From contig OY821784.1 in NCBI GenBank assembly GCA_963682175.1, forward strand, positions 22,735,621 through 22,799,620: 64,000 nucleotides of DNA, read 5' to 3'. A program made the translations under genes and the position numbers. Shown here piece after piece: positions 1 through 62,855 of this stretch. Below the pieces are notes generated by a model. The model ran no database searches. It saw only the letters and a list, made by a program, of their open reading frames with translations, and was not told the DNA's origin. Position 1 is the first letter of the stretch; each line of letters starts with the position of its first letter. This DNA is from Triglochin maritima (taxonomy: Eukaryota > Streptophyta > Magnoliopsida > Alismatales > Juncaginaceae).

Positions 1-1296
1 AAATAAGATAAAACCTTATCATTAAAACATACAAGACATAATTGAAATGAAGCTAATATATTCACATGCATGATGACTCAAATAACACTATGTCTCCACA
101 TGATTAAGATTTATCACAATCCAAGACATTAATTAGGATAAAGCCAACATGATCACATTCATGCACATGTCTTGTTCCCTTCTTCTACTCCATCCTCATC
201 TCATCATTCCCCATAAAATAGGCCCACTAATCTAAGCATGTGCTAAGCATCACTCAAGGGCATTAGCACATCAAAGATAAGAGTGAAATCCCATTAGATG
301 GTTAAGGAAATCATATGAGTTCAAAGGTAGGATTAACACACACCTAATAAATCACATAATTAGATCACATTCTTCTCCACCCCCAATGGGAATGGACTAC
401 TCTCTACTCATATCTAAACTGAAGAAAGCATAAAAACAACATAAACTCATAATGCAAATGTAGAAAAATAAGATTAAGCAAACAACAACATAAATGAAAT
501 TGCATCAAAGTAAAGACATTAATGTAAACAACAAGAACTAAACTAGATTAAGAAATAAAAATACAAAGTTTTCTCCTCACCAACCCCCTTATTTACACAA
601 CTAAAATATAAAACTAATACCTACTCTAATGGGGGAGGGAGGACGAAGAAGGAAGGAGGCATTACAAGTGTATTTATAGAAGTTTAGAGGGTTTGGATGG
701 ATCTGAGCATAATGAGACGGTTGTAAATAAGATCTGGAGGTCATGGAATGCTCTACCGACAACCCCACACGTGCAGATCTAGAGGTCCTAGAATGAGCTG
801 ACCCGATAACCTGACCCGCGACCAAAATTTAAGTGCCAAACTCTTATCCGGATCCGCGAGTGGCGGATTTTAATCCACCACTGGGGATCAAATTTCTCTG
901 ATCGACTCCAAATTTTAACCATGGCTTTAGTTTACATAATAAACATGTGGGGTGCGCCCGGAGTTGTTGGTTGGAGCCTGTTTGGTTTTAATTGTCGAAT
1001 TACTCAGGTTCAAGAGATTCTGGACTTTTGCAAACAACATATTTTGCTTTACACTTAACTCCCTCTGGGTTTTCACTTGAGTCCTTCATGAGTTACAATC
1101 CAGTCCTTGAGCATTACAATTGGGTCCACAACCTTCCAAATTAGGCCATTCTTCTTGCGTTAAGTCCTTTTCTCTTCCTTTCTCTTTGTTATTGCCTAAA
1201 CCATTAAACACATCAAACAAACACTCGAGTAGCACAAATATGTGGTAAAATATAGGATATATAGCATGAATATGATGCATGATATGCTACTAATCA
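1..1296 (-). repeat. Athila-like LTR, type B (3' LTR of element 1, partial)
   Basis: The minus-strand LTR start TGATTAGTAGC lies at 1296 and is preceded by a purine-rich tract. A TATA box (TATAAATA on the minus strand) lies at 671-678. A pair of palindromic motifs, ATCCGCgagTGGCGGAT at 852-868 and ATCCaccacTGGGGAT at 873-888, lies upstream of it. The same LTR type recurs at 10123-11226 and, inverted, at 34647-36274. The LTR continues beyond the left edge. Confidence 0.8.
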
Positions 1297-1310
1297 AATG
1301 CCCTCACTTA
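1297..1310 (-). other. Polypurine tract of element 1
   Basis: On the minus strand this reads TAAGTGAGGGCATT immediately before the LTR start. It matches the purine-rich, GTGGGGGTATT-like tract found at the same place in the other Athila-like copies here (34636-34646, 39195-39211, 62856-62872). It would prime plus-strand DNA synthesis. Confidence 0.75.
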
Positions 1311-2870
1311 ACGTTTGCTAGTCCCGAGCAAAACAAAGAAAGAAAAAAATAAAAGAAAGTGAAACATACGAAAAATGGGGAAATCCTAGCAATGTGGGGA
1401 AGGAATCACGGTTGCACATAGCACGTGCAACAAGCCGTTAAACCTACTTGTCGCCTATGAGGAGGAGTGGTGTCTCCTGAGGGTTTTCGGCGGATATATC
1501 CACAAAATCCGAATATTGATGAATTATTCAATCTAGCAACACTACTTGTTGGACCTATTTTTGTCGATCATTGGAAACAGTAATCCTATGGGCCGACTAT
1601 ATATGTATCCAGTCCAAACACCTAGCCTAATGAATCATTTGTGCAAATTAATTAAGGACTTCAGTGAAATACATAGACAACCTTAACATCCATAAGTGAT
1701 ACAAAGTGTAAAGTCCATTACGGTTCTTATTTTCATTACCATTTTTCTTCTTCTTTTTTTCATTTTATTTTTGTCTAGTTGGTGTTGGGATTCTACCAGG
1801 GTTAGGTTTCGTGCATCATTGCCTATGAGAACTTACATTATCATGTACACCTTTACCCAAATCTTCACATAGGAAATTTATCTAGTCGGTGCATCATTGT
1901 CTAGTCGGTGCATCCCAAGTCAGATGACTTGAAAGCACCATACACTAAGTCCCATCAGATCTAATTTCCTGAGTGATGGGAGCCGTACGAGAAGAGAGAA
2001 CACTTACTCACTTATTTTCTTATCTACACATGAACCAAAACCTCTACACTTAAGGTTTCACAATAGGAGTTTAAGGGATTTGACTACAACAAACTTCCTT
2101 ATACTAACTGACACAAATTATTATACTTACTAGGTTAAGGGTGGAGTTGTTTATTTGTTTGAGTACTGAAACCCTATGATTACTCTACCCCCTAGGGAAA
2201 ATTAGGGTGCATCCTAACGACTAGATAAGGCCCAAAGCCGGTATACTAGATATCCTAATGCATCATGTTCAAGTCAATTTTGGGAGCTTCCGTTTTACTT
2301 TGCCCATCAACGGTTTTGCACATGCTAAACACCTGAAAAACCCACAACACATTTTTGTTTTACAAAAACATGATGATTTTGAAAGGAATGAAAAATCTTA
2401 AAGCACTGGGCAAGCAAAAGAAGGCAAGTCACCCAAGGATCATGACAAGCAGATATATCGACATCGAATGTAACACACTAACATGACCCTAACAATGCAA
2501 ACCAAAGAAGACAGAAGAAAACCAAAGAAAAGGAGAACGACTCGACTATGTAGACACGTAAAACACCCACCACACTTCATGCATTGTCCTCAATGAATGT
2601 GAGCATAGTACTACATGAATTTTTGCATGAAAAATGAAAGATCTCACCAACGCGAAGCGCAAAGGCAAGTTCATGGTTATGTTGATGGACACAAACCCTA
2701 ATTCCCTCAAAACCTATGAAATAATAAAGAAGGGAGACAAAGATAAGAAACAAATGGGGCCCAAAACAAGCTGTGCTCACTCTTGGAGCTTAATTTTGAA
2801 ATATAAATATGTACAAATAAAACTTCCCATCTTCATTTGTCAGAGGGCATCAAATGAGAAACTCAAAAGT
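1311..2870 (-). other. 3' noncoding interior of Athila-like element, copy 1
   Basis: This stretch has no credible ORF. It recurs with the same order of landmarks at about 4482-5990, 11227-12390, 33628-34635 (inverted), 39212-40550 and 62873-63790. It is therefore the conserved noncoding segment between the last ORF and the 3' LTR of this family. It contains a long T-rich tract on the plus strand (about 1740-1775), present in most copies. Confidence 0.7.
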
Positions 2871-2873
2871 GGG

Positions 2874-7572: not shown

Positions 7573-8563
7573 AGTAAGTGAGAAGAAGATGACTCAGAGG
7601 AGAAGGTAAGAATCCCTAAAAACTAGCATTGGTAAAGGGTGAGGGTAGAAGCCTAGTCTAGCAAACACGGCTCAAGCGGCCTACGGTCACTATAGGTACT
7701 TACAGCTAGACGACACCTAACTTTGAGGTCACACGGTCTCAACACGCCTCACCTCCCTACCACGAAGACCACAAAGCCCAGTAAGTGAGCCAAGATCCGG
7801 AGATCTCGCCTCTCCTACTATCGACAAAGTGAGTGACACCGATCAGGCTATGACGGTTGTGATAGGATCACTCTCCTAATGCGCCCGAGTCCTATTGGCC
7901 AATGTCTACTTGATTTTAAATTAAGGCTTCACTTGAGTGTGTTTTTTGAGGCTAAGGAAGGGGTGATGAAATCCCCCACCATATATTTAAGACTATAGGT
8001 GGTGCCCCTTAAAAAATGTTTTGAAATCTTAGGCTAGCAAGCAACTCACAAAACAAGCACTCACTTGTTACAATGCACCTTACTAACTAATGCATGATCT
8101 AAACATGCATGAATGAGAGAATGGGTGCACGTACCCGACGTCAGCAATCAACAACAAGAATGTAAAGAAAATAAACATGAGCACGTGTAAAGTCTACAAA
8201 TGATGCATGACCTAGATGACAATCAATCTAGTCTTTTGCTTTGAGTTTTAAGGTCCAAGTTGATTAAAGAGACTTGATTATTAATCGGGGAGCAAACTAC
8301 AAGTCAAAACATTCCAAATTGAGCCCGTAGATGACGTAGTTAATGTAGAAACAACCAGAAAAAATAAGAGGGATTTTGGACCTCACCAGGCCGCCAATTG
8401 GCTGTCCAGGACCGCTGATTGACGGTCTGTTTGCTCCTGTTACCCTCCCGTCTTCTCCTGGTTACGTTTCCTGATCTTTAAAGCCTCCTGAAACAAACTG
8501 AAACAACAAACAAAAAATTAAAACCACTCGAATCGTCCAAACTAAAGTCTGGACAGAACACCT
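7573..8563 (-). other. 5' leader of element 1
   Basis: This is the noncoding stretch between the primer site and the Gag-like region. It is strongly similar to 57230-58177 in the autonomous-type element, including a recognisable block around 7670-7890. It carries the paired palindromes CCGCCAATTGGCTGTC (8391-8406) and CCGCTGATTGACGGTC (8412-8427), starts 21 bp apart. No ORF of note. Confidence 0.65.
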
Positions 8564-8580
8564 CCCCGACAATGGTGCCA
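8564..8580 (-). other. Primer binding site, Asp-tRNA type (element 1)
   Basis: On the minus strand the site reads TGGCACCATTGTCGGGG, a variant of the TGGCGCCGTTGCCGGGG site complementary to the 3' end of plant tRNA-Asp that is typical of Athila-like elements. It starts 6 nt from the LTR boundary at 8587. Several mismatches indicate age. Confidence 0.7.
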
Positions 8581-8586: not shown

Positions 8587-10122
8587 TGATTGAATAAGTT
8601 ATAATAACTGCAAGTGCACGGCCGCATTGATGTGGTGGCAAATACGGGTCGATCGACAGGGAGGTGTGTCGACTTTGGTTAGTTCGAAGGCGAGTGGGAA
8701 ACAAGATGGAAGAAAATGTGTGATTACACTACACCAAAGTAGGAATGAACAAATAATAAAAAATAAACCCCATAGGGGGTAGAGAAAGAATGTGAATGTA
8801 AAAATATGTGTAACTGTGTGTATTCAATTGTGGTCATCACAAGATGTAGTATATGAAAACCATAAAACTAGATCCAACTTTGCCTCCACATGAAATAAGA
8901 TAACACATTATCAATAAAACATAAAAGACAATAATTGGAATGAAGCTAAATGAACTCATGCATAAAGAACTAACCCCACTATGTCTCCACATGAAATAAG
9001 ATTTACACAATCATTAAAACATACAAGACATTAATTAAGGTGATGGCGACAAGAGTACATGCAACCACAAGTCATGTTTCCTTTATCAACTCCATCCTTA
9101 CCCCCCCCCCCTCCCCTCATCATTCCCCATAAAATAGGCCGACTAATCTAAGCATGAGCTAAGCTTCATTCTAGAGCATTAGCAAATCAAAGATAAGACC
9201 CATATCCCATTAGATGGTTAGGGAAATAATGTAAGGCTCAAAGAATTAAGATAACACACACACACATAATACATCACATAATCACATCACACTCTTCTCC
9301 ACCACCAAATGGGGATGGACTACTCAGTAATCCTTAATCTAACAATCATATAATGAAAGCAAGACATTCTAATTATACTATGATAAAGAAAACAAACAAA
9401 CTAAACATGCAAGTATTTAAAACAAAAGACAATATAAAACTAACAAAACTATGAAGAATTATTTTATTTACATGACTCACATTACAAGTAGTATTCTTCT
9501 CCCCTTCAGTTTTTGCTTCAAGGCATACTCCAAGTAGAGAGAATGCCACCAAGAAAAGGGTGAATACAAATGAGGAGGAAGAGTTCTATTTATAGCCATA
9601 GAAAAAGGTAATCCGGGACAATCCCCCGGTATGGGACTAACCGTATACCACAAATGGACTAAACACAACCTAATACATGACCCTCCAAAGTCCTAGTGGA
9701 TCCAGACCAAAACCGAATTCCCATCAGCGGTCTTGGACCGCCAATTGGCGGTCTATATTGTCTTGATCTAGTCTGGTTTTGGAGTGTGGTTGTCTAACTT
9801 CATGTCTTCATGTGTGATGCATCCAAATAGTTTGTAGGATCTCAGGACCAAATCGAATTGCCAAAGTACTCCTCATGATGGTGGGAAGTTTATTGATTTG
9901 CTCGTTGGTCCTTTGGGCTAACATTCAGGTCCTTCCCTCTTGCATCTTAGTCCCCAAGTCTTGCAACTTAGTCCTTTTCCTTGCTTTTGAGTCCTTTTTG
10001 TGCCTTTTCTCCTCAAATCTGCTTATTCTTGAAATTTAAACATTAAACTCGTTACGTAACATTGTTTAGGTGAAAGATAATGGATATAAGACATAAATGT
10101 ATGCATGATATGATGTCAATCA
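8587..10122 (-). repeat. Athila-like LTR, type A (5' LTR of element 1)
   Basis: The 1536-bp LTR runs TG...CA on either strand. A TATA box lies at 9588-9595 (TATAAATA on the minus strand). The palindrome CCGCCAATTGGCGG lies at 9738-9751, about 145 bp upstream, and the right half of a partner lies 21 bp away (9725-9732). Solo copies of the same LTR type occur at 25906-27292 and 32075-33622. Confidence 0.8.
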
Positions 10123-11226
10123 GTTCACATACATCATGACTCAAATCCAACTATGTCTCGACATGAAATAAGATTTATCACAGTCGAAGACATTAATTAA
10201 AATAAAGCCAACATTAGCATATGCATGCACATGTCTTGTTCCCTTTTTTCATGTGAGATTAGATGGTTAAGGAAATCATGTGAGATTCAAAGGTAGGATT
10301 AACACACACCTCATACATCACATAGTCACATCACCTTCTTCTCCACCCCGAATGGGGATGGACTACTCTCTACTCACATCTAAACTAAAGAAAGCATAAA
10401 AACAACATAAACTCATAATGCAAACGAAAAAAAAGAAGATTAAGCCAACGACAACATAAAAGAAATTATATCAAAGTACAAACATTAATGTAAAGAACAA
10501 GAACTAAACTAGACTAAGAAATAAAAATACAAATTTTGTTTCTCTCCAACCCCCTTATTTACACTACTGAAATAGGAAACTAACACCTACTCTAATGGGG
10601 GAGGGAGGAAGAAGAAGAAAAATAAAGGAGGCATTACAAGTGTATTTATAGAAGTTTAGAGGGTTTGGATGGATCTGGGCATAATCAGACATCTGTAAAT
10701 CAGATCTGAAGGTCCTTGAATGCTCTGACCCGACAACCCGACCCGCGGCCCAAATTTGAGTGCCAAACTCTTAACCGGATCCGCACGTGGCGGATTTTAA
10801 TCCGCCACTAGCGAATCAATTTTCTGTGATCGACTACAAATTTTAACCTCGACTTTATTTCACATAATAAACATGTGGGGTGCGCCCGAAGCTGTTGGTT
10901 CGAGCCCGTTTGATTTTAATTGTCGAATTACTCCTCAGGTTTAGAGGATTCTGGACTTTTGCAACCAACATATTTTTCTTTACACTTAACTCCCTTTGGA
11001 TTTTCACTTGAGTCATTGCTGAGTTACAATTCAGTCTTTGGGCATTACAAACAAGTCTAGGACATTCTGAATCAGTCCATTCTTCTGGTGTTTAGGTCTT
11101 TTTCTCTTCCTTTCTCTTTGTTATTGCCTAAACCCTGAAACACATCAAACAAACACTCGAGTAGCACAATATGGGTAAAATAAAGGATATAATGCATGAA
11201 TATGATGCGTGATACGATACTTATCA
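10123..11226 (-). repeat. Athila-like LTR type B fragment (3' LTR remnant of element 2)
   Basis: The fragment matches 58-1296 of the window and ends with the minus-strand LTR start near 11226. It abuts the type A LTR at 10122 directly. The polypurine tract and about 550 bp of adjoining interior are missing, because the next bases (11227 on) correspond to about 1848 of element 1. The paired palindromes are kept at 10779-10795 and 10800-10816, starts 21 bp apart. Confidence 0.75.
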
Positions 11227-12399: not shown

Positions 12400-14144
12400 T
12401 GTAAGTTAATCGGTCACTAATCTAGAGGGGGGTGAATAGATTATCTCCTAATTTTCTTATACTATTGCACAATTAAAGCAATAAGGGAAAGAATGCAAAC
12501 CATAAGATGACTCTGGAGATTTGTAGAGGTTCGATCACACCACCGTGATCTAGTCCTCTCCTCAAGTTCCGATCGATCCTCCGATCCCTACTCGAGAATT
12601 CACTATTATCTTCGTTCCGGGTCGAAGATAAACCCTCTTACAATCGGAGCCATGCGAACACCCTCGCCTTGCTCGGATCTCCTCTCACAACCCGAGAGGG
12701 TGCTTCCTCGAAGCTTTACAACACAATGGAAATTGAATGTGGTTGTTGAACTCTAACTTGAATGCACTCAAGGATATGATTTAGGCTTGGAGTGAATTAA
12801 GTGGAAGTATGAGAGTTGGTGGAGCGTTGAAGGCTTGAAGATTGAGAGCACAAGAGTAGGATTGATATTTGGCAAGTAAGGTTATGAATGTGTCTCTTAA
12901 GTGAAGCTTATATAGCCTTCAAAACAAATAGTGCCGTTATGGTAAGTTGGTGAGGAGTGGACCAAGTGAAAACAAGATGTGACTTAAGCTCGGGCAGAAA
13001 TCGAGACATATTCGGTCGACCGTTGGAAACACGGTAGTCCGAAGAAGTGGTCAGAAACAAGAACTCGGTTAACCGAATATAGGTTGGATAACCGGTCACC
13101 AACTTCCAGTAACTTTTTCCTAATATCGGATAATTAATTTCGGTTGACCAAGATCACTTCGGTGCACCGTTCAAGAGTGGACAGTAAAGATTTGGTGCGA
13201 CTCGGTGAACATGTTCGGTAGACCGTGATATGTTCGGTTGACCGATACATGTGCGGATTTTCGGCTGACATAGTGTGTGAAATTGGTTTATCGATAACGG
13301 TCGAAATATTACGTGGAAAAATAGCCGTTACGATCTTATATCTAAGAACAACTCGGTAATCCGAAGATCCATCGGTAGACCGATATGGATGTTTCAAAGA
13401 TGTGGCTAAACGACAAAATATAAGTCTGGTGGAGTTAGTTGTGCCACGTGGGCCAATAAGATGAAGTCGGTTTAGGCCTAAAGACATATAGAAGTTCGGA
13501 TGACCGAGCTCTCTTCGGAAGACCGAATAGAGATGTCCAGAGAAGTATTCGAAGCTACTGGGAATAGGGACACGGTCGACCGGGTAAGGTTCGGTACACC
13601 GAAACAATGTTTCCAGGAGATCAAGTTTTCTACTGATTCTAAGAAGACGGTTGACCGAACAACTTTCGGTACACCGAAACGAGGATTCGAGGAGATCAAG
13701 TTTTACTGACTCTATAGGGAACGGTTGACCGAATTAGGTTCGGTACACCGTCACAAGGGTTCCAGGAGATCAAGGGTTTACTGACTCTATAAGGAATGGT
13801 TCACCGAGAGACACTAGGTTATCCGTTGGGAACCTTGTTCGGTAAACCGATGTGGATACGGTCGACCGCGGCAGATGGGTTTATCCTTTTGTGCATCAAG
13901 TGTAGATTTATCCTACAACTCAAATAAATGGAAAATTACATATGAAGTCCTTGAGCTTTGATTACAAGTCTTGAGCCTTGATCTTGAAGTTGATTAGTCC
14001 CTTGGTTTGATCACCTACATTGTTAGGAATACACAATATCTATGCAATTTGATAATATGATGTGTGTGATGTTGTAATTGAAGTTATGCATACTATTAGT
14101 TTGTTAATCATCAAAATTAAGATTAAAGGGCCAAAAAGCCAACA
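12400..14144 (-). repeat. 3' LTR of the Sirevirus-like element
   Basis: The 1745-bp LTR starts TGTAAG and ends GCCAACA on the plus strand. It has the same length as its partner at 21298-23042; a 1-bp deletion and a 1-bp insertion near 13900 cancel out. A TATA-like box lies at 12908-12915 and the palindrome array occupies 13013-13868. Confidence 0.95.
13013..13868. promoter_or_regulatory. Paired-palindrome array in U3 (3' LTR copy)
   Basis: The array holds copies of the 10-bp palindrome CGGTNNACCG arranged as pairs. It is collinear with the better-preserved array at 21911-22766, with coordinates shifted by 8898. Some pairs lost here are intact in the other LTR and the reverse (for example CGGTAGTCCG at 13032-13041). 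Confidence 0.8.
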
Positions 14145-14160
14145 ATCTCCCCCTTTTTGA
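14145..14160 (-). other. Polypurine tract of the Sirevirus-like element
   Basis: On the minus strand it reads TCAAAAAGGGGGAGAT directly before the 3' LTR. This is the highly characteristic Sirevirus purine tract and primes plus-strand synthesis. Confidence 0.9.
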
Positions 14161-14489: not shown

Positions 14490-15842
14490 CTAGTTGTCCG
14501 GCTTGTTCATGTTTCGAAGAAGCTCCATCATCTCATTTTGCGAGTCGAAAAAGGCTTGACGTGAGTCTCCAACCTCACGAAATTTATTGTGGATGTCGTT
14601 CAGCGAGTTCGACGTCGATAATCGGAAGTTTTGGAAGTCGGAGGTGAGGTCTTGAATACCTTGATAGTTACGATTTACCAAACTCATAACTTCGTGAATC
14701 TCTTCGCAATTCCGGTCCAAGAACTTCTCATGACGATTGGCCCATGCCGGTTGGTTCTATTGAGCATCGGTGCCGGATGACCACTCGGGACGAACGTATC
14801 TTCGTGGACCACGAGACAAGCTAGGATCCCAATTAGGATTCACTTCGGCATCATATGGAGGAGGAGACCAACGTGGAGCATCGGTAGAGACATCATCATC
14901 CTCATTTTCAGAGGAGTCGTCTTCCACTTCTTCTTCGACATGTGCTTGCTTCCCCGAGCGCATCCTTTTGAGAGTGTATTTGTCGATGACCGTCTTGGAT
15001 GATTTGAAGAGATCGCGGTCGAATTGGATGTTGAAGTGATCGATGACCAGCGAAATCAACATGGGGAAAGGGAGAAAGTTACGCTTCTTCCGGGAAATGT
15101 ATATCATGTGATTGATGATAAACAAGGGTCAATTTGTGCGTGTTCCGGTAGAGAGGTTGAAAAGGCACTTCATCATTTGATGTCCAAGCTCGTCGAGGTG
15201 CCCTTTGCGCACAAAAAGGTTGGTGGAAATGAAGCGGCAAAGAATACGGCCAACAACCGGAAGATGAGGAATGGAAAGCTTGCCATCGTGAGGAACTTCC
15301 GGTTGAGTCACCTCCAGAAATTGACTCATAGAGCCACAAACATTCTCCCAAGAAAGATTGTAGATGTCCTCCCCGGCGCAAGGAAGTCCGGTGATCTCCG
15401 AGAGGAGAGAGGCGGTGAGAGTGAAAGAGATGGAATCGACTTGGGTCGTTAGCGCCGCTTGAGTACCATCAAGAGCGGTGGTCTCCCGGAGATTTGCATA
15501 AAATTGACGACAAGCTTCCGCGGAGAAAGGGACCGGAAGTTTGTCATGAAAGAAGATGCCAAGATTATCAACCATGAAATAGGTGGATAGACCAATCGAC
15601 TCGAAATCTTTTAGGATGATCTTCCGCTCCGGAATTGGATTTGCACCACTAATATTGTAGTAGTGCTCCTCCGCCTTTTGATTGTAGAAGATGCCTTTGT
15701 TGTAGGGCCGAAGATACTCGTCGACGGGTTCGCTCGCCGGATTAGTAGAAGAAGATGGTATGTCGGGGTTGAGCCTTGTCTTCTTTGCCGGTGGAGCGGG
15801 TTCCACCGCCTTCTTGGAAGTGCAAATTTTTCTTGGACCCAT
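14490..15842 (-). pseudogene. Third ORF (env-like position) of the Sirevirus-like element, two in-frame stops
   Basis: A single frame of 450 codons runs from ATG at 15842 (MGPRKICTSKK) to the stop at 14490, broken only by TGA at 15129-15131 and TAG at 14757-14759. The N-terminus is basic and Pro-rich, with a possible nuclear targeting stretch. The centre has a folded region with the block ACRQFYANLRE followed by SFTLTASLLSEITGLP. This resembles the family often annotated as putative plant transposon protein, and also the ORF at 40464-41327. Next comes an acidic run (EEEVEDDSSENEDDD), and the C-terminus is predicted to be helical. I see no signal peptide or transmembrane segment, so a true envelope role is unsupported. 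The upstream spacer (16026-16492) repeats the U3 palindrome architecture, suggesting an own promoter. Function unknown. Confidence 0.7.
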
Positions 15843-16025
15843 GACGAGGAATGGAGGAAGTGATGAAATGTTTTGAAGTTGGAAAGGGTTTGAAGTGAGA
15901 AAGGAGGAAGCAAAAGTGTGCTTAGGAAGATTTGGCTTTGGGGATGATAGAAATGAAAGAGGGTAGCCAAAAATACAGAAGATGGGAGAATAAAGGGGTC
16001 TGCAAACGTGAAAAAACGTGTCCAA
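15843..16025 (-). promoter_or_regulatory. Possible leader of the third ORF
   Basis: On the minus strand this stretch is pyrimidine-rich (CTCCTTTCTCACTTC-like) before the ATG at 15842, as in many plant 5' untranslated regions. AT-rich, weakly TATA-like runs lie at 15969-15977 and 15989-15996. It sits directly downstream of the palindrome array. Whether transcription starts here is inference. Confidence 0.35.
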
Positions 16026-16492
16026 CGGTCATCCATAATTGCCTCGGAAGACCGTTGGACCAGTTCCAACGGCTAGAAAATGTCGCCCCTCGGTCGACCG
16101 AACAGGAGTCGGTATACCGTCACAAAGATAACAGTAAGTATCAAAGCTCTACTGCAACAGGTGAACGGATTACCGACACATGTTCAGACGTCCGTTGTGG
16201 GAGAATCTTTCCACGACGGTCATCCGATTAAAAATCGGATACCCAAGAATTCAAAAACAAGATTCGTTTAAAAAGGGGTCAACGAAGAATTCAAAAATCA
16301 TCCAAGAGACGCGGTCGTCCGAACAGGGTTCGGATAACCGATAGATTCGGAACAGGGAAGAATTCTAATTAAAGCACAGCAAAACGGTCGGTCGACCGTG
16401 TAAGGCACGGTGTACCGAAACAGAGAATCCATACCAAGTCCGAATCCCTGTCCAGACACAATCCGGTTTACCGAACCATGTTCGGTCATCCG
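16026..16492. promoter_or_regulatory. Paired-palindrome array between pol and the third ORF
   Basis: Seven pairs of CGGTNNACCG-type palindromes, starts exactly 19 bp apart in each: 16026/16045, 16091/16110, 16166/16185, 16217/16236, 16312/16331, 16389/16408 and 16464/16483. The 9-bp gaps between partners are not conserved. The pairs recur every 51-95 bp, often 75. This is the same architecture as in the LTR U3, placed upstream of the third ORF. Confidence 0.85.
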
Positions 16493-21283: not shown

Positions 21284-21295
21284 GCTCTGATACCA
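21284..21295 (-). other. Primer binding site, initiator Met tRNA (Sirevirus-like)
   Basis: On the minus strand it reads TGGTATCAGAGC, a perfect match to the plant initiator-Met primer site, two bases from the LTR end at 21298. Confidence 0.95.
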
Positions 21296-23042: not shown

Positions 23043-23047
23043 ACATG
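23043..23047. other. Target site duplication ACATG (right)
   Basis: Direct repeat of 12395-12399 flanking the Sirevirus-like element. Confidence 0.95.
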
Positions 23048-23690: not shown

Positions 23691-24204
23691 TCACCTCACT
23701 CTTGTTACAATAAACCTTACTAACTAATGCATGCTCTAACCATGCTTGAATGAGAGAACGGGTGCACGTACCTCATACCAGCAATCGACAACAAGAATTT
23801 TAAGAAAATGAAAGACAATGTGCATGCAAGGTGTACAAGTGTTGCATGACCTAGATGACAATTAGTCTAATATTTTGCTTTGAGTTTAATGGTCCAAGTT
23901 GTCTAAAAAAGCGAATTGATTGATTTGGGAGTAAACTACAATTCCAAACATGCCAAATTGAGCTCCTAGACCACTATATTGAAAGTACAAACATACAAGA
24001 GAAATTAGGAAGCAAATGAAACTTACTAGACCGCCAGTTGGCAGTCCCTAGCCGCTGATTTGTGGCCACTTTGATGTTTTTCTTCCTCCAATTTCTGTAG
24101 GTGCCTCCCCTTGATCCTTTGAATCCCTTAAACAAAATCTAAACTAAAAAATAGAAAATTAAATCCACTCGAATCGTCTAAACCAGATTCTGGACAGAGC
24201 ACCT
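23691..24204 (-). other. Shortened leader of element 2
   Basis: Homologous to 7980-8563 of element 1. It contains the paired palindromes CCGCCAGTTGGCAGTC (24031-24046) and CCGCTGATTTGTGGCC (24052-24067), starts 21 bp apart. The Gag-like segment between this and the unknown-domain ORF has been lost. Confidence 0.65.
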
Positions 24205-41327: not shown

Positions 41328-41825
41328 TTAGAGTAATACCACCCTTTGGCGACGTTACGTCATGAATCAGGGAGGAAAAATTTAATTCTGTAATGAAATG
41401 AGGGTTGGACATACCTGCACCAACCTTGGTGAGCTTTAACGGAGGAGAGAGTGTCAACTAAGAAGAGTAGAATGTACGAAGAGTAGAGTTGAATGCTCGC
41501 TAATTGGAATTGAATATGGGAAAAAGCCAAATAGAGAAGGACGCAGGGCGACATGGGAGACACACTGGCGAAGACGGGATCAAAACCAGCTACCTGGACC
41601 GCTAATTTGCAGTGGCAGACTACTGATTGGCGGTTTGAATGGTTCTGCTGGTCTCCATATTTCTGCATTGTGGCCGCCGAAAGAGATGGAGTTTTTCTGG
41701 TGTGGAGTGAGATGGGCAGGGTTGCGAAAAGAGTATTTAAGTAAGGGATGTGTAAAATATCACAAAAGGACTCCCTTTTAGAGGGTTTTTTTTCTTTCTT
41801 TTTTCCTTTTTTTGTAACTAACAAA
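41328..41825 (-). other. Spacer between integrase and env-like ORF in element 3
   Basis: It holds paired palindromes CCGCTAATTTGCAGTG (41599-41614) and CTACTGATTGGCGGTT (41620-41635), starts 21 bp apart, as in the LTR and leader of this family. A TATA-like TTAAATA occurs on the minus strand near 41737-41743. A 154-codon minus-strand reading spans 41360-41824, but its composition (a Lys-rich start from an A/T tract) and lack of homologous blocks make it doubtful. Confidence 0.45.
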
Positions 41826-42696: not shown

Positions 42697-44196
42697 TATT
42701 GGCTTTTTGGCCTTAATCTATGTTTTAATGATTTAATCAACCTAATCTTAATTGTGATCATTTAGAGTAGTAGCACACATGTTGTATTGCATATCTATTG
42801 CTTTGTGCTAACCTCTACAGGTGTCAAGACTCAAGGAAGAAAGGAAATCAAGTCAAGACATGTAATCAAGCTCATTTGAAGACATGTATTTGGTATTTCT
42901 TTGAGTCTTAGGAACTTTGTGTAATTGAGCATACTTGAGCTAAAAACTACTCAAACACACACTAGGTTCCCTACAGAACTCACACAAAATTTCATATAAT
43001 TTGGACTTCAATAGATCACTCAAACTCAGACTGGAAAACACCAAACACTTAACCTAAACAGTCTGCCCACATTTGGTTCACCAAAACAGACCATTCGGTC
43101 GACCAAGTGATCATATGTTCTGTTAGTGTTTTGCTGTTCAACTTCGGTTGACCGTCCATATCGAGTAACAAGAAATTTCCGACCGTTTGTTTTGTCGTAT
43201 ATACCCAACGATCGTATTCGAATTATCTCCATATACCCTAAATACATTTAGTGTATTAGTCGACCTAGGACCTTGTTCGGTTGACCGAACTTAAGAAGAC
43301 TCGACCAACCAAAATTGTTGGTTGGTTTTTGGTAGACCGAGGAACTTGTTTCAGTCGACCGAATATGATCGGTGTGAATCGGTCGACCGAACCTATCTCG
43401 GTGTTCGACCGATCACTTAAGTGTACCTGAGTCATAGCCTTTGGCGGTTGACCGTTCTTTTACCTGTCGATTGAACCTTAATCAAAATTGTCAAACGGTC
43501 GACCGTTCAGCCCAATCTGGTCGACCGAACTTACTCAGAATTGGGTCCTGTCAGTTTCTTTTCTGTGTATCTTACACAATCTTTACCCAATTCATCCCCA
43601 ATGGCTATAACTTTTTAGGAGCTTGTAAATAGAGTTGTAAAACACAGTTTAACACAACTCTCCCACTACTATTTGTCCCCTACATTAGAGAGAATGCTCC
43701 AAACACTCCAAGCGTCAAACCATCCACACTTTAGTCTTAAATCCTATTCTCACTCAAGTGTGCTCAAGATTAGAGAGTGTTGTTCCACTCATTGATTGTC
43801 AAAGAAGAAAGGGTCATGGTGAAAACCCAAGACAAGAGTATCGACTTCGGTGAGACCCGAAGTGACCCGCTCAGATTGTGAGAGGAGGAGTCAAGCTCGA
43901 CAAGGGTTGTTCGCGGGTTTGAAGATTGTAAAGGCGTTCTCTCCCGGCCCGGAATGGGGAGTGGTTAGTGAAGACGTGAGCGGAGTTCGGTGATCCGAGT
44001 GGAGCTTGCAAGAGAGGACTAGGACCCGGGTAGGGTGCCGAACCTCTATAAAAATCCCCTGACTCGTTGTGGTTTGCATTTGTCTTTCCTTTACTTGCTT
44101 GTTTAGTTTTAAATTCCGTTGCATATCTTTGATCGTTAAACAAGTATGTAATTAGGATTAAAAGTGATTAGAATTAGAGACCATCACGATCCTACA
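42697..44196 (+). mobile_element. Solo Sirevirus-like LTR in the integrase of element 3
   Basis: Exactly 1500 bp, TATTGGCTTTTTGGCC (first TG mutated to TA) to GATCCTACA, flanked by TAATC on both sides (42692-42696 and 44197-44201). It shares its start with the Sirevirus-like LTR but is a different family. U3 carries CGGTCGACCG-type palindromes in pairs (43330/43352, offset 22; 43497/43518, offset 21). Confidence 0.9.
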
Positions 44197-44647: not shown

Positions 44648-45125
44648 AATGTTCGCGAACCAGGGGGTGAGGCTATTGACATGAGATTCTCGTTAGGGAA
44701 GTACTCATTCACCGATGGGTCCGATGAAGGTTCAACATAAATGTGTGACAAATAGTTAGCGAGGACATTTTCACGACCTTTCTTATCCCGTATCTTAAGG
44801 TCGAACTCTTGCAACAAAAGAACCAATGAAGGAGACAAAGTTTCAAATCCTTCTTAGACAAAAGGTATCGAAGAGCGAAGTGATCAGTGTAGATGATGAC
44901 CTGCGACCCAATGAGGTACTGACAAATTTTTCCAACGCAAATATAATCGTGAGGAACTCTTTCTCAATTACAGAGTGGTTTAGTTAGGTGTCTTTGAGAG
45001 TACGACTAGCATAATAGATCACATGAGTCAATTTGTCGACTCTTTGAGCCAAAACTGCTCCTATCGCATAATAGGAAGCATCACACATTATATCGAAAGT
45101 AAGTGTCAACACTAGCACCTTAATT
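44644..45125 (-). pseudogene. Athila-like RNase H, C-terminal part
   Basis: FDIMCDASYYAIGAVLAQR (first catalytic Asp region), HVIYYASRTLKDT, then after frame changes [15 protein letters not shown] and VLANYLSHI. The 5' side of the domain lies at 53297 on, across the inserted Tekay-like element. Frame changes near 44980 and 44840 break it. Confidence 0.8.
45121..45125. other. Target site duplication TTAAT (left)
   Basis: Repeated at 53297-53301. It flanks the Tekay-like element and proves insertion into the RNase H region of element 3. Confidence 0.95.
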
Positions 45126-46908
45126 GTAACGTCCTGAAACAGCGGAAGAAAATTTTCAAAATAAACATACAACATACGACCGTCAACGGTCAACAAGGGC
45201 ACGTTACTGAAAGTCAACTGAATACAAATATATAAATATATCTCCACGTGGAAGTCATAATACAGAGTGTCAAAAGAGCGATTACAAGTCTACTACATAA
45301 CTACTGTAATCGCTACCTCTACAAAAAGATACGAAGACAGGATCCGATCGCGGAGGTACTCCCCTCGGTCACCACCAACCTACGACTGTCTGCTCCCTGA
45401 AAATGAAACATGAAATCTGCCTGAGTTCCCGCAAGGAACCCCGTATGCCAACATCTCCTATCATAAACAAAAATACAGACGAAAATGACAAATAATGCTC
45501 ATGCAATGCAAATCCGCCTCGGGCCCACTGACTGCCTCCGCTCTCCAACACAAGGAAAGTGCATCCCCTCCCTACACAAGGAAGAAGGCGTCTCTCGGCC
45601 GCACAGGCACAAGTGACCTCGCTCTCCGACACACGGAAAGTGCAACCCCTCCCTACACAAGGAAGAAGGCATCTACCACCCGCACAGGCATGGAAGGCAT
45701 ATCTCTGCCGCACAGGCTCAAGGGGTCCAACAGAAATACGCTCTCGTCGTAGGTGAAATCCGTAGCTCCGAGGTCCGGTGATCGACCGTGGGCTCGGCAG
45801 CCGGTAGTCGCCTAAACTCGACGTCTCGCGTGTGGATAAATCCACCAAGGAAAGATAATTCGACCCACCAGTCGAACAAGGTCAAATCTAGCGGTCGACC
45901 GTTTGGAAGGTCTACGCTATACATTTTATATACATATATATCCTATCGGTCAAACCAGGGTCCGTTCAACCGATAAGGAAAACTGCCTGAATCCTGTCTA
46001 CAGCATTCGGTCGACCGAAACCTCTCCTCCGGTCGACCGATCTACAGGCACTTCACTGCAGAAAACTGCACGCGGTCGGTCGACCAGATCACAACGAGCG
46101 GTCGACCGTTTAGATGGTCAACGCTCTTGACCGACTTTGCGCAGTTCGGTCGACCGAGACACACACTCGGTCGGCCGAAGGTCTGTCTACCCTATCTACT
46201 GGGATCGATCGACCGAAACAACCACCGGTCGACCGGACTAATATAACCCTTATAAATATTCCCGCTAAAATTTGGCATAAACGGTCGACCGTCACAGACG
46301 TCGTTCGACCATTTTCGGGTCGTAAGTAAATATTCATTAAAAATCGATCGACCGACCCAACCACCGGTCGACCGAACATACATTTCCCTCCTGGACAGGT
46401 ATCATACAGACCTCGTTCGGTCGACCGAACCACACAACCACTCGACCGAACAAAGAGTCTTCAACCTCCGTCCAGTGGGGTTTCGCCGGGGAAACGACAC
46501 CAACGCCGCCCCCTACACTCTCACACCTCTTGGGGAGTTCATATGAAGACTTGGCATACCTTTCACCGTGAAGAAGACGTGTGCGGCGAGCTCCTCCTCC
46601 TTCGTCGTCGCTTCTAGCTCCTTCTCCTTCTTTCCTCCGTTCCCGGCGCTCCTTCTTCACATGCGTCGACTTCACCACGTCGCCGGTGTCCTCCCTCGTC
46701 CTCTGGTCGTCGGGATGCAAGAAGATTGGGTGAGTGTTTGGTGGAAAACGAAATGGGCAACCAAAGGAGCAAAAGGGTGAGATTTTGGTTTTTAAAACAA
46801 AACCTAATACCTACCCCATACACCCCTCCATACCTCCCACCATACTCTCACACCCCAACCATACCACCCCATACCTTCTCTCTCTCTCTCTCACTTCACG
46901 TCTTTACA
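45126..46908 (-). repeat. 3' LTR of the Tekay-like element
   Basis: 1783 bp, TGTAACGTCC to GTCTTTACA on the plus strand. TATA box ATATAAAA (minus) at 45924-45931. Palindromes from 45892 to about 46447. Compared with the partner it has a shorter CT run at the end and an extra segment near 46428-46455. Confidence 0.93.
45541..45702. repeat. Two 81-bp tandem units within the Tekay-like LTR
   Basis: CTCTCCAACACA at 45541 restarts as CTCTCCGACACA at 45622, and GAAGAAGGC and CGCACAGGCA follow at the same spacing in each. The same pair is in the other LTR (51930-52091). It lies downstream of the TATA box, in the probable R-U5 part. Confidence 0.7.
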
Positions 46909-51509: not shown

Positions 51510-51512
51510 AGT

Positions 51513-53242
51513 TGTAACGTCCCGAAACAGCGGAACAAATTTTTTCAAAATAAACATACAACATACGACCGTCAACGATCAACAAGGGCACGTTACTGAA
51601 AGTCAACTGAATACAAATATATAAATATATCTCCACGTGGAAGTCATAATACAGAGTGTCAAAAGAGCGATTACAAGTCTACTACATAACTACTGTAATC
51701 GCTACCTCTACAAAAAGATACGAAGACAGGATCCGATCGCGGAGGTACTCCCCTCGGTCACCACCAACCTACGACTGTCTGCTCCCTGAAAATGAAACAT
51801 AAAATCTGCCTGAGTTCCCGCAAGGAACCCCGTATGCCAACATCTCCTATCATAAACAGAAATACAGACGAAAATGCCAAATAATGCTCATGCAATGCAA
51901 ATCCGCCTCGGGCCCACTGACTGCCTCCGCTCTCCAACACAAGGAAAGTGCATCCCCTCCCTACACAAGGAAGAAGGCGTCTCTCGGCCGCACAGGCACA
52001 AGTGACCTCGCTCTCCGACACACGGAAAGTGCAACCCCTCCCTACACAAGGAAGAAGGCATCTACCACCCGTACAGGCATGGAAGGCATCCCTCTGCCGC
52101 ACAGGCTCAAGGGGTCCAACAGAAATACGCTCTCGTCGTAGGTGAAATCCGTAGCTCCGAGGTCCGGTGATCGACCGTGGGCTCGGCAGCCGGTAGTCGC
52201 CTAAACTCGACGTCTCGCGTGTGGATAAATCCACCAAGGAAAGATAATTCGACCCACCAGTCGAACAAGGTCAAATCTAGCGGTCGACCGTTTGGAAGGT
52301 CTACGCTATACATTTTATATACATATATATCCTATCGGTCAAACCAGGGTCCGTTCAACCGATAAGGAAAACTGCCTGAATCCTGTCTACAGCATTCGGT
52401 CGACCGAAACCTCTCCTCCGGTCGACCGATCTACAGGCACTTCACTGCAGAAAATTGCACGCGGTCGGTCGACCAGATCACAAAGAGCGGTCGACCGTTT
52501 AGATGGTCAACGCTCTTGACCGACTTTGCGCAGTTCGGTCGACCGAGACACACACTCGGTCGGACGAAGGTCTGTCTACCCTATCTACTGGGATCGATCG
52601 ACCGAAACAACCACCGGTCGACCGGACTAATATAACCCTTATAAATATTCCCGCTAAAATTTGGCATAAACGGTTGACCGTCACACAGACGTCGTTCGAC
52701 CGTTTTCGGGCAGTAAGTAAATATTCATTAAAACTCGGTCGACCGACCCAACCACCGGTCGACCGAACATACATTTCCCTCCTGGACAGGCATCATACAG
52801 ACCTCGTTCGGTCGACCGAACAGAGCGTCTTCAACCTCCGTCCAGTTGGGTTTCGCCGGGGAAACGGCACCAACGCCGCCCCCTACACTCCCACACCTCT
52901 TGGGGAGTTAATATGAAGACTTAGCATACCTTTCACCGTGAAGAAGATGTGTGCGGCGAGCTCCTCCTCCTTCGGCGTCGCTTCTAGCTCCTTCTCCTTC
53001 TTTCCTCCGTTCCCGGCGCTCCTTCTTCACATGCGTCGACTTCACCACGTCGCCGGTGTCCTCCCTCGTCCTCTGGTCGTCGGGATGCAAGAAGATTGGG
53101 TGAGTGTTTGGTGGAAAACGAAATGGGCAACCAAAGGAGCAAAAGGGTGAGATTTTGGTTTTTAAAACAAAACCTAATACCTACCCCATACACCCCTCCA
53201 TACCTCCCACCATACTCTCACACCCCAACCATACCACCCCAT

Positions 53243-53283
<41 letters not shown>

Positions 53284-53301: not shown

Positions 53302-54182
53302 AATAGGAGAGGAGGTCAAATCATGCTTTAGAAACTCAAACACAGTCATGGATTCGAGTGTAAACTCAAAAGATGCGCCTTTAGTAAGCAAGCTCGTCAA
53401 GGAACGAGCTATCTTGCTGAAATGTTTAATGAAATGTCAGTAAAACCAGCATGTCCGAGGAATGACCGAATTTCTTTTACCGAGGTAGGTGGCGGAAGCT
53501 TAGAAATAAGCTGAATCTTTGCCCTATCCATGTCGATTTCGTCATGAGATACCACGTGGCCCAACATGATGCCCTTCATAACCACGAAATTACATTTTTC
53601 CCAATTAAGGAGTAAGTTTGTTTCCACACATCTCTTGAAAACAAGGCTCAAGTGGTGCAAACACTCGTCAAAGGAGGCACCATGCACTGAGAAATCGTCC
53701 ATGAAGATCTCAAGGAAGTTCTCGACTACGTCGGAAAAGATACGTAACATGCAACGTTGGAATGTTGTCGTTGCACTGCATAGTCTAAAAGGCATACGTC
53801 TATACGCAAACGTCCCAAAAGGACATGTGAACGTGGTTTTCTCCTGATCTTCAGGAGCCACTGGGATTTGATTGTACCCTGAATAGCCATCGAGGAAGCA
53901 GTAGTAGGCATGCCCGGTAAGTCTCTCCAACATCTTATCGTTGAAAGGTAGAGGGAAGTGATCCTTATGCGTTACTGCATTCAACTTCCTATAGTCAATG
54001 AATACTCGCCACCCAGTTTGAAATTGCGTTGGAACAAGTTCATTGTTGTCATTTTGGACAACAGTGATACTAGACTTCTTGGGCACAACCTGGACAAGAC
54101 TTACCCAAGCATTGTCCAAAATGGGGAAAATGATGTTGTGGTCTAAACACTTGATGATCTCTTTCTTAACTACCTCTGCCAT
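53302..54182 (-). pseudogene. Athila-like reverse transcriptase of element 3
   Basis: The open frame 54182-53409 covers most of RT: KKEIIKCLDHNIIFPI, WVSLVQVVPKKSS, TGWRVFIDYRKLNAV, HKDHFPLPFNDKMLERL, YYCFLDGYSGYNQIPVAPED, FRLCSATTTFQRCM (usual PFGLCNAP region altered), the catalytic FMDDFSVHG and VKEIRSFLGHAGF. A 1-base deletion near 53440 changes frame. Homology then continues with IARSLTSLL and the RNase H start until the Tekay-like insertion. It is the best-preserved RT of the Athila-like copies here. Confidence 0.9.
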
Positions 54183-56865: not shown

Positions 56866-58177
56866 CGATCGTGGAGGGGTAAGGGAGCTAGGGGAGCCAA
56901 CTGACGACGCTGTATATCCACACCTGTCGGATAAGTAGCTGGTACAGGTCCAAAACCTAGGTCATCCTCGTGTGGAAAATGAGTGGCGACGTTCTCGGGA
57001 ATGCATTCAAAAGGTCGACAATCGAGGACAGATTGAGGTCGTATCTTGTTAAACGACCTTCAGTGTCTCGTGACCACAATGGCATGCATAAGGCTGCACA
57101 CCCACACATGTCACACGAAATACAAACCTTTTTTTACGCAATTAAAACAGAGGGTCGAGAGGAGAAGATGGGAAGAGTCAGATGATAAGGGAAGAATTCC
57201 TTATGCTACGTCGAATAGGTAATGGTAGAAGCTCACACGTAAAAAAGGCTCAAATAGCCTACGGTAACTATAGGTACTTACAACTAGAAGACGCCCAACT
57301 GCGAGGTCACGTAGCCTCAACATGGCTCACCACCCTACGACGAAGACCACAAAGCCCATCAAGTGAGGCAAGATCCAGAGATCTCGTCTCTCCTATTATC
57401 GACAGAGTGGGCGACGCCAATCAGGCTATGACGGTCGCGACCGGATCACTCTCCTAATGCGCCCGTGGTCCTTAAGAGTCAATGTCTACGTGATTTTAAA
57501 ATTAAGCTTTTTAAGATGTGATTTGTGGGGCTGAAGGAAAGGGTGATGAAATTCCCCACCTTATCTTGAAGACTATAGGTGGTGCCCCTTAAAGATGTTT
57601 TGAAACCTTAATCTATCAAGCAACTCACCAAACAAGAACTCACCTCACTCTTGTTCCAATGGAAGTCCTGCTAACTAATGCATGGTCAAACTAAGTAATG
57701 CATGAATGAGAATAGGAGATGCATACCTCGCGCCAACACTCATCAATTGAAAGTATAGCTAAATGAAAAGACAAACTATATGCCTAAGTCAAGTACATGA
57801 TGCATGACCTAACCAAGCAAGAATGCCTAATCTTTTGCTTTGGATTTTAATGACCAAGTTGATTAAACAGGGGAATGATAGGTTTATTGATTAATCTGGC
57901 AGCAATCTACGGGTAAAAAACATGCAATATTGGGCTCCCAGACAACTAAACTAGTACTACCAACCAAACAAAGAAGAAATGGAGAAAATGAAGCTTACCA
58001 GCCCACCAGTAAGCGGTCTCAGACCGTTATCTGGTGGTCTTTGTAGCTGCAAAAGGTCCCAAATTTTTCTTTCTTCTTCTTCTCAGTGATTCCTAAACGT
58101 CCTGAAATAAAACAACACTAAAAACAAAAGATCAAATCCCCTCGAATCGTCCAAACCAGAGTCTGGACAGAACACCT
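56866..58177 (-). other. Gag start region and 5' leader of element 3
   Basis: No continuous ORF. 57230-57480 matches 7640-7890 of element 1. Paired palindromes CCACCAGTAAGCGGTC (58003-58018) and CCGTTATCTGGTGGTC (58024-58039), starts 21 bp apart, sit about 140 bp from the primer site. Confidence 0.65.
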
Positions 58178-58194: not shown

Positions 58195-58202
58195 AAAAAA
58201 CT

Positions 58203-58352
58203 TGATTGATTTAGTTATAATACCGCAAGTACACAGATACGATGAAGCAGTGACAAGTACGAGTCAAGTCCACAGGGAGGTGTGTCAACTCTGGTTCTTC
58301 AGAAATCCAATGGAAAATAAAGGGGAGAAGAAGTTTGATTACACTAAACTAG
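58203..58352 (-). repeat. 5' LTR remnant of element 3
   Basis: Aligns with the first 150 bp of the LTR at 37774. It is cut at about 58352, after ACTAG, where unrelated sequence begins with TGTAAAGCC. Confidence 0.8.
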
Positions 58353-59620: not shown

Positions 59621-59678
<58 letters not shown>

Positions 59679-60590: not shown

Positions 60591-61320
60591 TGTTGACTTT
60601 TTGGCCTTAATCTATGTTTTGATGATTTAATCAACCCAATCTTTAATTGTAATCATGTAAGAGTAGCACACATATTGCATAGCATATATATTTTATTGTG
60701 CTAACCTCCACAGGTGATCAAGACTCAAGAAAGAAAGGAAATCAAGTCAAGACATGTATTAAAGCTATATTGGAGACATGTAATCTTGCTTTTCTTTGAG
60801 TCTTATGAACATTGTATTAATTCAGCATACTTGGGCTAAAATCAACTCACATACTAGGTTTCCTATAGAAGTCACACACAAAATTTCACATCATTTGGAC
60901 TTCAATAGGTCACCCAAACATAGACCGAAAAACACTAAACCAAAACCAGAACAGTCTGCCCACGTTCGGTCGACGGAGTGATAAATTATCCAGTTAGTGT
61001 TTTCTACCATCCGCTCAGTCGACCGTCCAGACCTTTTCGGTCAATCGAGTAACCACAAATTTCCGACCGTTTGTTTTGTCGTTTTATTCCAATGGTCGTA
61101 TTTTTATTATTTCCAATTACCCCAAAAATACATTTTGCCTATCGGTTGATCGTGAACCTTTTGGTCGACCGAACTTATAGTGTCTCCATTTTGTGCAACT
61201 GCCTGGACGTTTTCGGTCGACCGAAGACTTTGCATCGGTCCACCGAACATGATCACTTTTGCCAACCCAGTAGAGCCTCTTAGTTTACGATCGACCGAAC
61301 CTATCTCGGTGTTTGACCGT
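60591..61320 (+). repeat. Sirevirus-like LTR 5' part, cut by element 5
   Basis: It starts TGTTGACTTTTTGGCC and is collinear with 42697-43410 of the solo LTR, ending CTATCTCGGTGTTTGACCGT where element 5 begins. Palindrome pairs at 61143/61162 (offset 19) and 61214/61236 (offset 22). The missing part should lie beyond the right window edge. Confidence 0.75.
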
Positions 61321-62855
61321 TGATTGATCGTTTTATATTTAACCGCAAGTGCACGGCCGCGTTGAAGCGGTGTCAAATACGGGTCGTCCACTGGGAGGTG
61401 TGTCGACACTTGGTTTGTGCGAAGGCGAGAGGTAAAGAAAGGGAAGAAAGGTTGGTTACACTAAACTACACTAAGACGCAAATGGAAATGGAAAAGAAGC
61501 AATAAAACTAAACCCCAAAGGGGGTAGAGAAATAATGTGAACATAAAGAAGTGTATGTGTGTGTGTGTGTTCATTAAGCTTTTCACAACATGTAGTGCAT
61601 GAAATCATAAAAATACATCCAACTTAGCCTCCACATGAATTAAGATAAGACTACATCATTAAAACATACAAGACAATAGTTGGAATGAAGCTACATGAAC
61701 TCAAGTATAAAGACTAGACTACATCATTAAAACATACAAGACATTAGCTAAGGTAAAGGCAACAAGAGTTCATACACTACAACTTGTGTTTCCAATATTA
61801 ATTCCTATCCATATCCTAACCTTATCATTCCCCATAAAATAGATCCACTAATCAAAGCATAAGCTAAGCTTCATTCAAGAGCATTAGCATATCAAAGATA
61901 AGAGTGGAGACCCATTAGATGGTTATGGAAATCATTTAAAGCTCAAGGGATTAAGATAACACACACTTAATACACTACATGATTATATCACATATTTCTC
62001 CACCCCCCAAATAAGGATGGAACTACTCAGTACTCATTACACTAACTATATTAACAAAAGCAAGCATAATACTGAAATAAAACTACACTAATCAAGCAAG
62101 AAATATTAAAGAAGCATAAAACAAAACAAACAAGCAAGCATGCATATGAAAGGAAATTAAACTAAGAGAGGAACAACACAATTAAAGGAAAACATCTATT
62201 ATTAACTCACTCAATTACAAGTAGCTCTTCCTCCACCAGAGTTTTGCTTCAAGGCTTCACTCTTAGTAGGGAAGGTGGCCACCAAAGAGAGAGATGGATA
62301 CAATGGGAGGTGAAGAGTTCTATTTATAAGCATGGAAAAACATTATCCGGGACAATCCCCCGATGTGGGACTAAACCAATAACAAAAATAGCCTAAACAC
62401 ATGATAATACAAGTCCAGGAGAAAGCTTGGCGGATCTGGGGCCATATGGACCGCCAATTAGCGGTCCAAGACTGCCAATTGGCGGTCTATAAACTTCAGA
62501 TCTGCTTGGTTTTTGTTTTGGGCTTTGCTTGGAGTGTTTCTTGGTCTTGGATGCATCTAACTTGTTTAGTGGAGCTCCGACCCGAATCGAATTGACAAAA
62601 TACTCCCCATGATGGTGTGGAGTTTCCTGTTTTGCTCTTAGGTCCTTCTGTCTTACGATCAGGTCCTTCTGTCTTGCATCTTGGTCCCCAGGTCTCACAA
62701 TTAAGTCCTTTTTCCTGCTTTTGGGTCCTTTCATGGCTCTTCTCTTCAAACCTCTTTATTTCTGAAAACTAAACATAAAACTCGTCACGTAGCATTGCTT
62801 AGGTGTAAGATAATCGATATAAGATACAAATATAAGCATGAAATGATGTCAATCG
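61321..62855 (-). repeat. 3' LTR of element 5 (type A)
   Basis: 1535 bp, TGATTGATCG to GTCAATCG (the terminal CA has become CG). Paired palindromes CCGCCAATTAGCGGTC (62451-62466) and CTGCCAATTGGCGGTC (62472-62487), starts 21 bp apart. Confidence 0.85.

Follow-up and report, generated by a model that had tools for sequence, protein, structure and literature searches.

Why do short CGG/CCG palindromes in the long terminal repeats (LTRs) of plant retrotransposons come in twos, about two helical turns apart? The question is raised by a 64,000-nt stretch of Triglochin maritima DNA (GCA_963682175.1, contig OY821784.1, positions 22,735,621–22,799,620, forward strand), which we call the window. A first-pass annotation had described such pairs here, with start-to-start offsets of 19–22 bp. 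Our analysis confirms the pairing, finds it larger than described, and extends it genome-wide. Pairs occur in three lineages: copia Sirevirus, gypsy chromovirus, and Athila-like elements. Judging from sequence, we lean somewhat towards reading each pair as a putative two-dimer (tetramer-like) site that serves as an upstream activating module of an LTR promoter.

The whole window holds 62 perfect CGGTNNACCG palindromes. With a partner defined as a site that keeps at least 6 of the 8 fixed bases (at most 2 mismatches) at 19–22 bp start-to-start, 56 of the 62 were partnered, compared to 0–9 of 62 in the seven other 4-bp offset bins that served as the control. The same was seen in 18 random 10-kb stretches (180 kb) of the 1.063-Gb source genome, where 38 of 43 perfect sites had a partner at 19–22 bp (2–9 of 43 in control bins). 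Partners on both sides were rare (0/62 window sites and 2/43 sample sites). The distance between the two half-sites of a palindrome is rigid: CGGT-N2-ACCG was found 62 times in the window, compared to 0–6 times at other spacings, and 43 times in the sample, compared to 0–4 at any of the other spacings (0–15).

The first-pass annotation had proposed a genome-wide count of offsets. Ours, made by pattern for perfect pairs rather than on a curated LTR set, was positive: 119,956 CGGT pairs at 19–22 bp, compared to 4,093 at 11–18 bp and 19,167 at 23–30 bp. Counts of this kind may be lower bounds for large repeat families, and the matches listed are the first ones on contig C1, not a random draw. At 11–18 bp, 47 of 50 among the matches listed lay at 18 bp and 3 at 11–17 bp; at 23–30 bp, 71 of 77 among the matches listed lay at 23–25 bp and 6 above 25 bp. 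Within the peak the offsets are bimodal, with 27, 7, 15, and 51 pairs at 19, 20, 21, and 22 bp in the first 100 among the matches listed. The reversed pattern, which by chance is the core of the Athila palindrome discussed below, gave 2,683 pairs at 19–22 bp, compared to 9 and 10 in the side bins.

A chromatin role would need no sequence-specific activator: CpG-rich phased pairs could set nucleosomes or be methylation-sensitive. CG and CCG/CGG sites abound in the palindromes. Among 101 departures from the CGGT pattern, the commonest are 28 G-to-A and 27 C-to-T changes (55 together), which fits the decay of methylated cytosine and is what methylation of silenced copies should leave behind. However, the motif shows specificity: when 4-base arms flanking N2 were scanned for exact matches, equal-arm pairs at 19–22 bp were found only for AT-repeat arms and CGGT. 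The fixed place of the pairs relative to TATA in Athila-type copies also argues against this explanation, which we regard as highly improbable. It should also be noted that inner half-sites of the CGGT families had more mismatches than outer ones (66 vs 35), largely from two related loci (L010, L016); counted per pair (30 vs 17, P 0.08) the difference was not significant, and we do not claim it for these families.

Three features of the window belong to the Sirevirus-like element:

21298–23043, minus strand: 5' LTR, Ty1/copia Sirevirus-like, with a palindrome array at 21911–22766.
12400–14145, minus strand: 3' LTR of the same element, with 11 pairs at 13013–13868, each at 19 bp.
16026–16492, minus strand: second array, five pairs each at 19 bp, directly upstream of the envelope (ENV)-like open reading frame (ORF) at 15129–16025.

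The two LTRs are 98.2% identical. ORFs between them match RVT_2, rve, and Retrotran_gag_2 in Pfam, the copia reverse transcriptase, integrase, and gag, as expected of a Ty1/copia pol. A motif at 21295 on the minus strand is what we take to be an iMet-type primer binding site (PBS). All 11 LTR pairs and all five ENV-upstream pairs have the 19-bp offset that had been noted for this element. The 3' LTR holds 14 perfect CGGTNNACCG sites. The array occupies positions 282–1137 of the LTR and a TATA-like sequence lies at 1236; in window coordinates this TATA (CTATATAA) is at 12915, 98 bp past the last palindrome. The layout is that of the Sirevirus repeated-motif (RM) boxes, with at least eight CGG-CCG palindromes starting 200–400 bp into the LTR, a TATA box following the boxes, and further boxes upstream of ENV, ORF 15129–16025 being the putative envelope.

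The extra array upstream of the ENV-like ORF is what would be expected if the binder were encoded by the element and not by the host; the ENV-like product, for instance, could act in anti-silencing or in replication. Bousios et al. (PMC2829016) report linker boxes only in ENV-bearing Sireviruses. However, the ENV-like ORF (minus strand) matched nothing in Pfam, the protein databases, or the PDB. Furthermore, the chromovirus carries the same palindrome, and the five of its ORFs that were scanned gave only gag and zinc knuckle, protease, reverse transcriptase/RNase H, integrase, and chromodomain matches. We consider an element-encoded binder very unlikely.

The chromovirus LTRs lie as follows:

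45124–46895, minus strand: 3' LTR, Ty3/gypsy chromovirus, with seven pairs at 20–22 bp between 46008 and 46448.
51512–53265, minus strand: 5' LTR of the same element, with pairs at 52397–52765 and a further palindrome at 52809–52818.

Chromo, integrase, reverse transcriptase, protease, and gag domains lie between the two LTRs. The label Tekay-like for this element comes from the first-pass annotation, and the seven pairs in 45124–46895 bear out the 20–22-bp offset given there. Palindromes span positions 452–989 of the LTR, with TATATA/TATAAA (TATA-like) at 941–951, so that the last palindrome lies beyond the TATA-like sequence. The pairing in both elements exceeds chance. Dinucleotide shuffles of the Sirevirus and chromovirus LTRs had a mean of 0.015 partnered sites, compared to the 11 and 7 observed. 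When sites with at least 7/8 bases were placed at random, the observed share of adjacent intervals at 19–22 bp had a P of 5e-5 for the Sirevirus LTR (9/19 intervals) and 0.0055 for the chromovirus LTR (5/13 intervals).

Three further segments with CGGT pairs form a family:

43074–43527, plus strand (element strand not settled): four pairs, all at 22 bp, in a Sirevirus-like LTR family.
29561–29989, minus strand: related LTR copy with five pairs (22, 19, 21, 22, and 22 bp), inverted relative to the 43-kb copy.
61016–61319, plus strand: third copy of the family, with four pairs (22, 19, 22, and 22 bp).

With palindromes masked, this family shares only short, weak blastn similarities of 29 and 50 bp with the Sirevirus LTR, and the 29.6-, 43-, and 61-kb copies probably represent a second Sirevirus-like LTR family.

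The offset might be a by-product of array growth, in which an ancestral unit was duplicated by reverse transcription or unequal exchange and the offsets were inherited rather than selected. Tandem units of about 75 bp within the Sirevirus LTR (81–83% identical) would fit such a history, as would the 23 of 54 unit-to-unit distances that fall at 70–79 bp and the Athila LTR pairs, which are homologous by position. However, the nine 9-base Sirevirus linkers are nearly unalignable, with a mean identity of 0.36 over 36 comparisons, and the offset is still 19 bp; distances between successive pairs run from 42 to 147 bp (values over 160 left out). The LTR and ENV-upstream arrays of the Sirevirus-like element share the offset and have no blastn match to each other (E up to 1e-3, palindromes masked), and the chromovirus LTR matches neither in the same search. 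The rarity of offsets of 11–17 bp and above 25 bp among the matches listed is a further point against inheritance. Unit duplication accounts for part of the 70–79-bp spacing, not for an offset held across unalignable linkers and unrelated lineages, and as the origin of the pairing it seems unlikely to us. The first-pass claim that the offset is kept and the linker is not stands, across copia and gypsy elements.

The third lineage has a different palindrome, CCGCCAATTGGCGG. The features that carry it are:

62451–62485, minus strand: Athila-type LTR pair at exactly 21 bp, positions 377/398 of the ~1.54-kb LTR at 61320–62854, with a TATA-like sequence at LTR position 533 (minus strand).
38788–38822, minus strand: Athila-type LTR pair at 21 bp, LTR positions 381/402, TATA-like sequence at 535.
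26277–26311, plus strand: decayed Athila-type LTR pair at 21 bp, LTR positions 381/402.
9738–9751, minus strand: perfect Athila-type LTR palindrome, with one half-site left (by eye) at the 21-bp partner place.
8391–8425, minus strand: Athila-type leader pair at 21 bp; its start lies 155 nt downstream of that of the PBS (8580).
24031–24065, minus strand: Athila-type leader pair at 21 bp; its start lies 156 nt downstream of that of the PBS (24221).
58003–58037, minus strand: decayed Athila-type leader pair at 21 bp (9 and 10 of 14 bases); its start lies 157 nt downstream of that of the PBS (58194).
41599–41633, strand and context not settled: Athila-type pair at 21 bp.

Allowing at most 4 mismatches, the window has six pairs of this palindrome and all six are at 21 bp, as had been noted. 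In the 180-kb sample, 25 sites (at most 3 mismatches) formed six pairs, again all at 21 bp. A relaxed pattern with any linker of 0–30 bases had 16,381 genome matches, compared to 38 for its reversed control, and the offset was 21 bp in 50/50 among the matches listed. We chose 20 Athila-type loci from the genome match list; in 11 the palindrome has a partner, always at exactly 21 bp, and no locus has one at any other offset from 12 to 80 bp. A TATA-like sequence is present in 5/6 Athila-type LTR copies, at 511–535, with the LTR pair at about 380/400. In four copies it starts 119–121 bp past the end of the last palindrome; one of these has a single palindrome, and in another the distance is taken from the decayed partner's place.

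We call these elements Athila-like, a label that rests on a primer-site motif. The Asp-type PBSs are presumably those at 8580, 24221, and 58194, with 2–3 mismatches to the 17-mer used as reference. Two weaker PBS candidates, at 52872 and 56984 (4 mismatches), were set aside as chance. No Athila Pfam domain was found in the ORFs scanned; a reverse transcriptase piece at 53409–54182 is among the window features. A second Athila pair is located in the leader, 155–157 nt past the PBS start in the three copies with a recognized PBS, and the module is not restricted to promoters. The 21-bp offset is kept in all three leader copies, including the decayed one.

Pairs downstream of the PBS are also compatible with a role in RNA. 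Here the partners would pair with each other in the transcript, around a loop of 9–12 nt, and feed small-RNA silencing, a role put forward for the maize Sirevirus palindromes, or, in the Athila leader, RNA dimerization. Folding was more stable than in shuffles (z −10.1 for Athila, −6.0 for chromovirus, and −3.9 and −4.3 for Sirevirus), and an unbroken stem is possible in the 71 of the first 100 among the matches listed that have CG centres on both sides. In addition, maize Sirevirus palindromes are small-RNA hotspots according to passages of PMC5311732 and PMC10760457. However, the Sirevirus LTR stretch outside the array also folds (z −3.6), and a hairpin does not require a narrow offset. If stems were maintained, centres other than CG should tend to be complementary. 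Of the 29/100 matches listed without CG centres on both sides, none was complementary (re-pairing mean 0.4); in the window and sample together, 1 of the 41/66 such pairs was complementary (re-pairing mean 1.1); and for the two Sirevirus arrays (3' LTR and upstream of ENV) the count was 0/13. Central-base compensation gives the hairpin no support beyond chance, an absence of support from a test with little power. We consider the RNA explanation quite unlikely.

Two side observations concern the Athila-type pairs. GATC-centred sites resembling CGGATCCG are found 21–23 bp outside the outermost Athila palindrome on the left in 10 of the 19 loci with a left flank and on the right in 11/20 (L046–L065), an arrangement that looks like a continuation of the phased set. 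At C1:10615103–10620897, Athila-type pairs recur about 4.4 and 1.35 kb apart, as would be the case if one LTR, the leader, and the other LTR of a short element, perhaps a non-autonomous one, each carried a pair.

The first-pass annotation had counted four LTR types. The fourth is represented in the window by two copies only, which are homologous:

852–888, no strand assigned: ATCCGC...GCGGAT-type double palindrome with an offset of 21 bp, outside the LTR, judged from the homologous copy at 10779.
10779–10816, no strand assigned: the homologue of 852–888, situated some 660 bp beyond the LTR boundary at 10121.

Among 22 sites of this type in the 180-kb sample, none was paired. With both copies beyond the LTR boundary, homologous to each other, and without a paired counterpart in the sample, this type was rejected as an LTR group, which leaves the three lineages named above.

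The palindromes, their pairing, the offset, its genome-wide excess, and the position of the pairs are seen directly. The earlier claim that most pairs lie upstream of a TATA box holds in part: most palindromes do so in the three LTR types with a TATA-like sequence, and the 43- and 61-kb segments have no TATA match. From this layout we infer protein binding, cooperativity, activation, and a host origin of the binder. Each palindrome would be the site of one protein dimer, its two CGG/CCG half-sites separated by a fixed number of bases (two in CGGT-N2-ACCG, six in the Athila-type CCGC-N6-GCGG). A pair of dimers would bind jointly, as a dimer of dimers, to sites 19–22 bp apart with any linker between them. 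That dimers may bind two by two is suggested by the rigid half-sites, the narrow offset, the free linker, and the looser distance to the next module. Several modules before the TATA box, roughly in helical phase, would place the bound complexes on one side of the DNA for joint action. Such a layout may have been reached or kept in both Ty1/copia and Ty3/gypsy elements because one host nuclear factor, or several related ones, reads it. Our guess at the binder, made with low confidence, is a plant LBD/LOB-type CGG-binding family.

Distances between adjacent units favor multiples of about 10.5 bp (R 0.58, 54 distances), and this is still the case when the 70–79-bp class is removed (R 0.49, n = 31, period-scanned P 0.0045). 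In a second set, from other places on C1, 10.5 again scored highest of the periods tried when all distances were used (R 0.46, n = 48, with a naive P of 4e-5, and of 0.0075 for 33 unique values). Helical phasing of successive pairs is likely, not proven.

Several observations weigh against reading the pairs as phased, activating two-dimer modules. In the second set, a period of 9 beats 10.5 (0.47 vs 0.43) for distances of at least 30 bp (n = 45), and the unique distances outside 70–79 bp are marginal (P 0.05, n = 26). The phasing distances are not independent, and both sets share element families. The CGGT peaks are at 19 and 22 bp rather than 21, with an additional 23–25-bp class, which a strict same-face rule would not predict; the first-pass suggestion that both partners face the same side of the helix, two turns apart, therefore holds only loosely. 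Some loci have chains instead of pairs (C1:42527–42600), and 9/20 Athila-type loci have a single palindrome only. Finally, two sets of pairs sit away from the LTR promoter, namely those in the Athila leader and those upstream of ENV in the Sirevirus-like element.

A broader claim is that unrelated LTR superfamilies of this one plant have converged on a shared promoter grammar, consisting of a 19–22-bp two-dimer ruler, phased modules, and one host factor family. We advance this tentatively, with rather less than even confidence. If true, the binding modules of very many LTRs would be interchangeable, with sequences that are replaced over time and a geometry that selection maintains. The activators of the most abundant plant retrotransposons are largely unknown, and a copia/gypsy-wide spacing rule makes a testable prediction: the factor should bind two palindromes at 19–22 bp.

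How do these pairs compare to known systems? A 2016 study reportedly described palindrome clusters in the LTR regulatory region, with hairpins and small RNAs as its main subject. The same aspects of maize Sirevirus palindromes are taken up in PMC5311732 and PMC10760457, and the passages there that cite the 2016 study give no spacing rule. Bousios et al. (2010, PMC2829016) described CGG-CCG palindromes in Sireviruses, both in the upper LTR before the TATA box and, as additional copies, upstream of ENV, and could name no binder for them; the Vitis RM box reads exactly CGGTCGACCG. The palindromes described here share sequence type and all of these positions, and differ in being paired at 19–22 bp and in occurring also in a chromovirus. 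In the passages found in the main text of PMC2829016, no box-to-box spacing is given, and RM boxes are called Sirevirus-specific among the copia elements compared, whereas we find the same palindrome in chromodomain-bearing gypsy LTRs. In the literature searched, at listing level and without a separate search for chromovirus palindromes, we found neither the pairing rule nor its presence in chromovirus or Athila-like elements. The Sirevirus CGG-CCG palindromes are already published; within that literature, the pairing rule and the spread to Ty3/gypsy appear to be new.

Relatives sought by protein gave none. Viral contigs yielded 23 stretches with a double CGGTCGACCG at mixed offsets, which were not used as evidence. 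In six of them (L023, L025, L029, L037, L040, L041) the two copies are exactly 19 bp apart. These stretches are perhaps phage DNA, from related phages with an operator-like pair.

E2F-type sites are amplified by plant transposons, and we know of no pairing rule for them. The Athila half-site ATTGGCGG fits the E2F consensus, and the inner half-sites TTAGCGG and TCAGCGG do not. Outer half-sites are mostly CCGCCAA and inner ones often CCGCTRA. The inner half-sites are the weaker ones, with T at base 5 in 53/100 inner compared to 16/100 outer half-sites among the matches listed, and in 33/60 compared to 12/60 unique half-site sequences.

The as-1/ocs-type elements of the cauliflower mosaic virus 35S and T-DNA promoters are twin palindromes near the TATA box to which two dimers bind cooperatively. 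Their half-sites are TGACG and their spacing is about one helical turn, whereas the palindromes described here read CGGT-NN-ACCG and CCGCCAATTGGCGG and are paired at another spacing.

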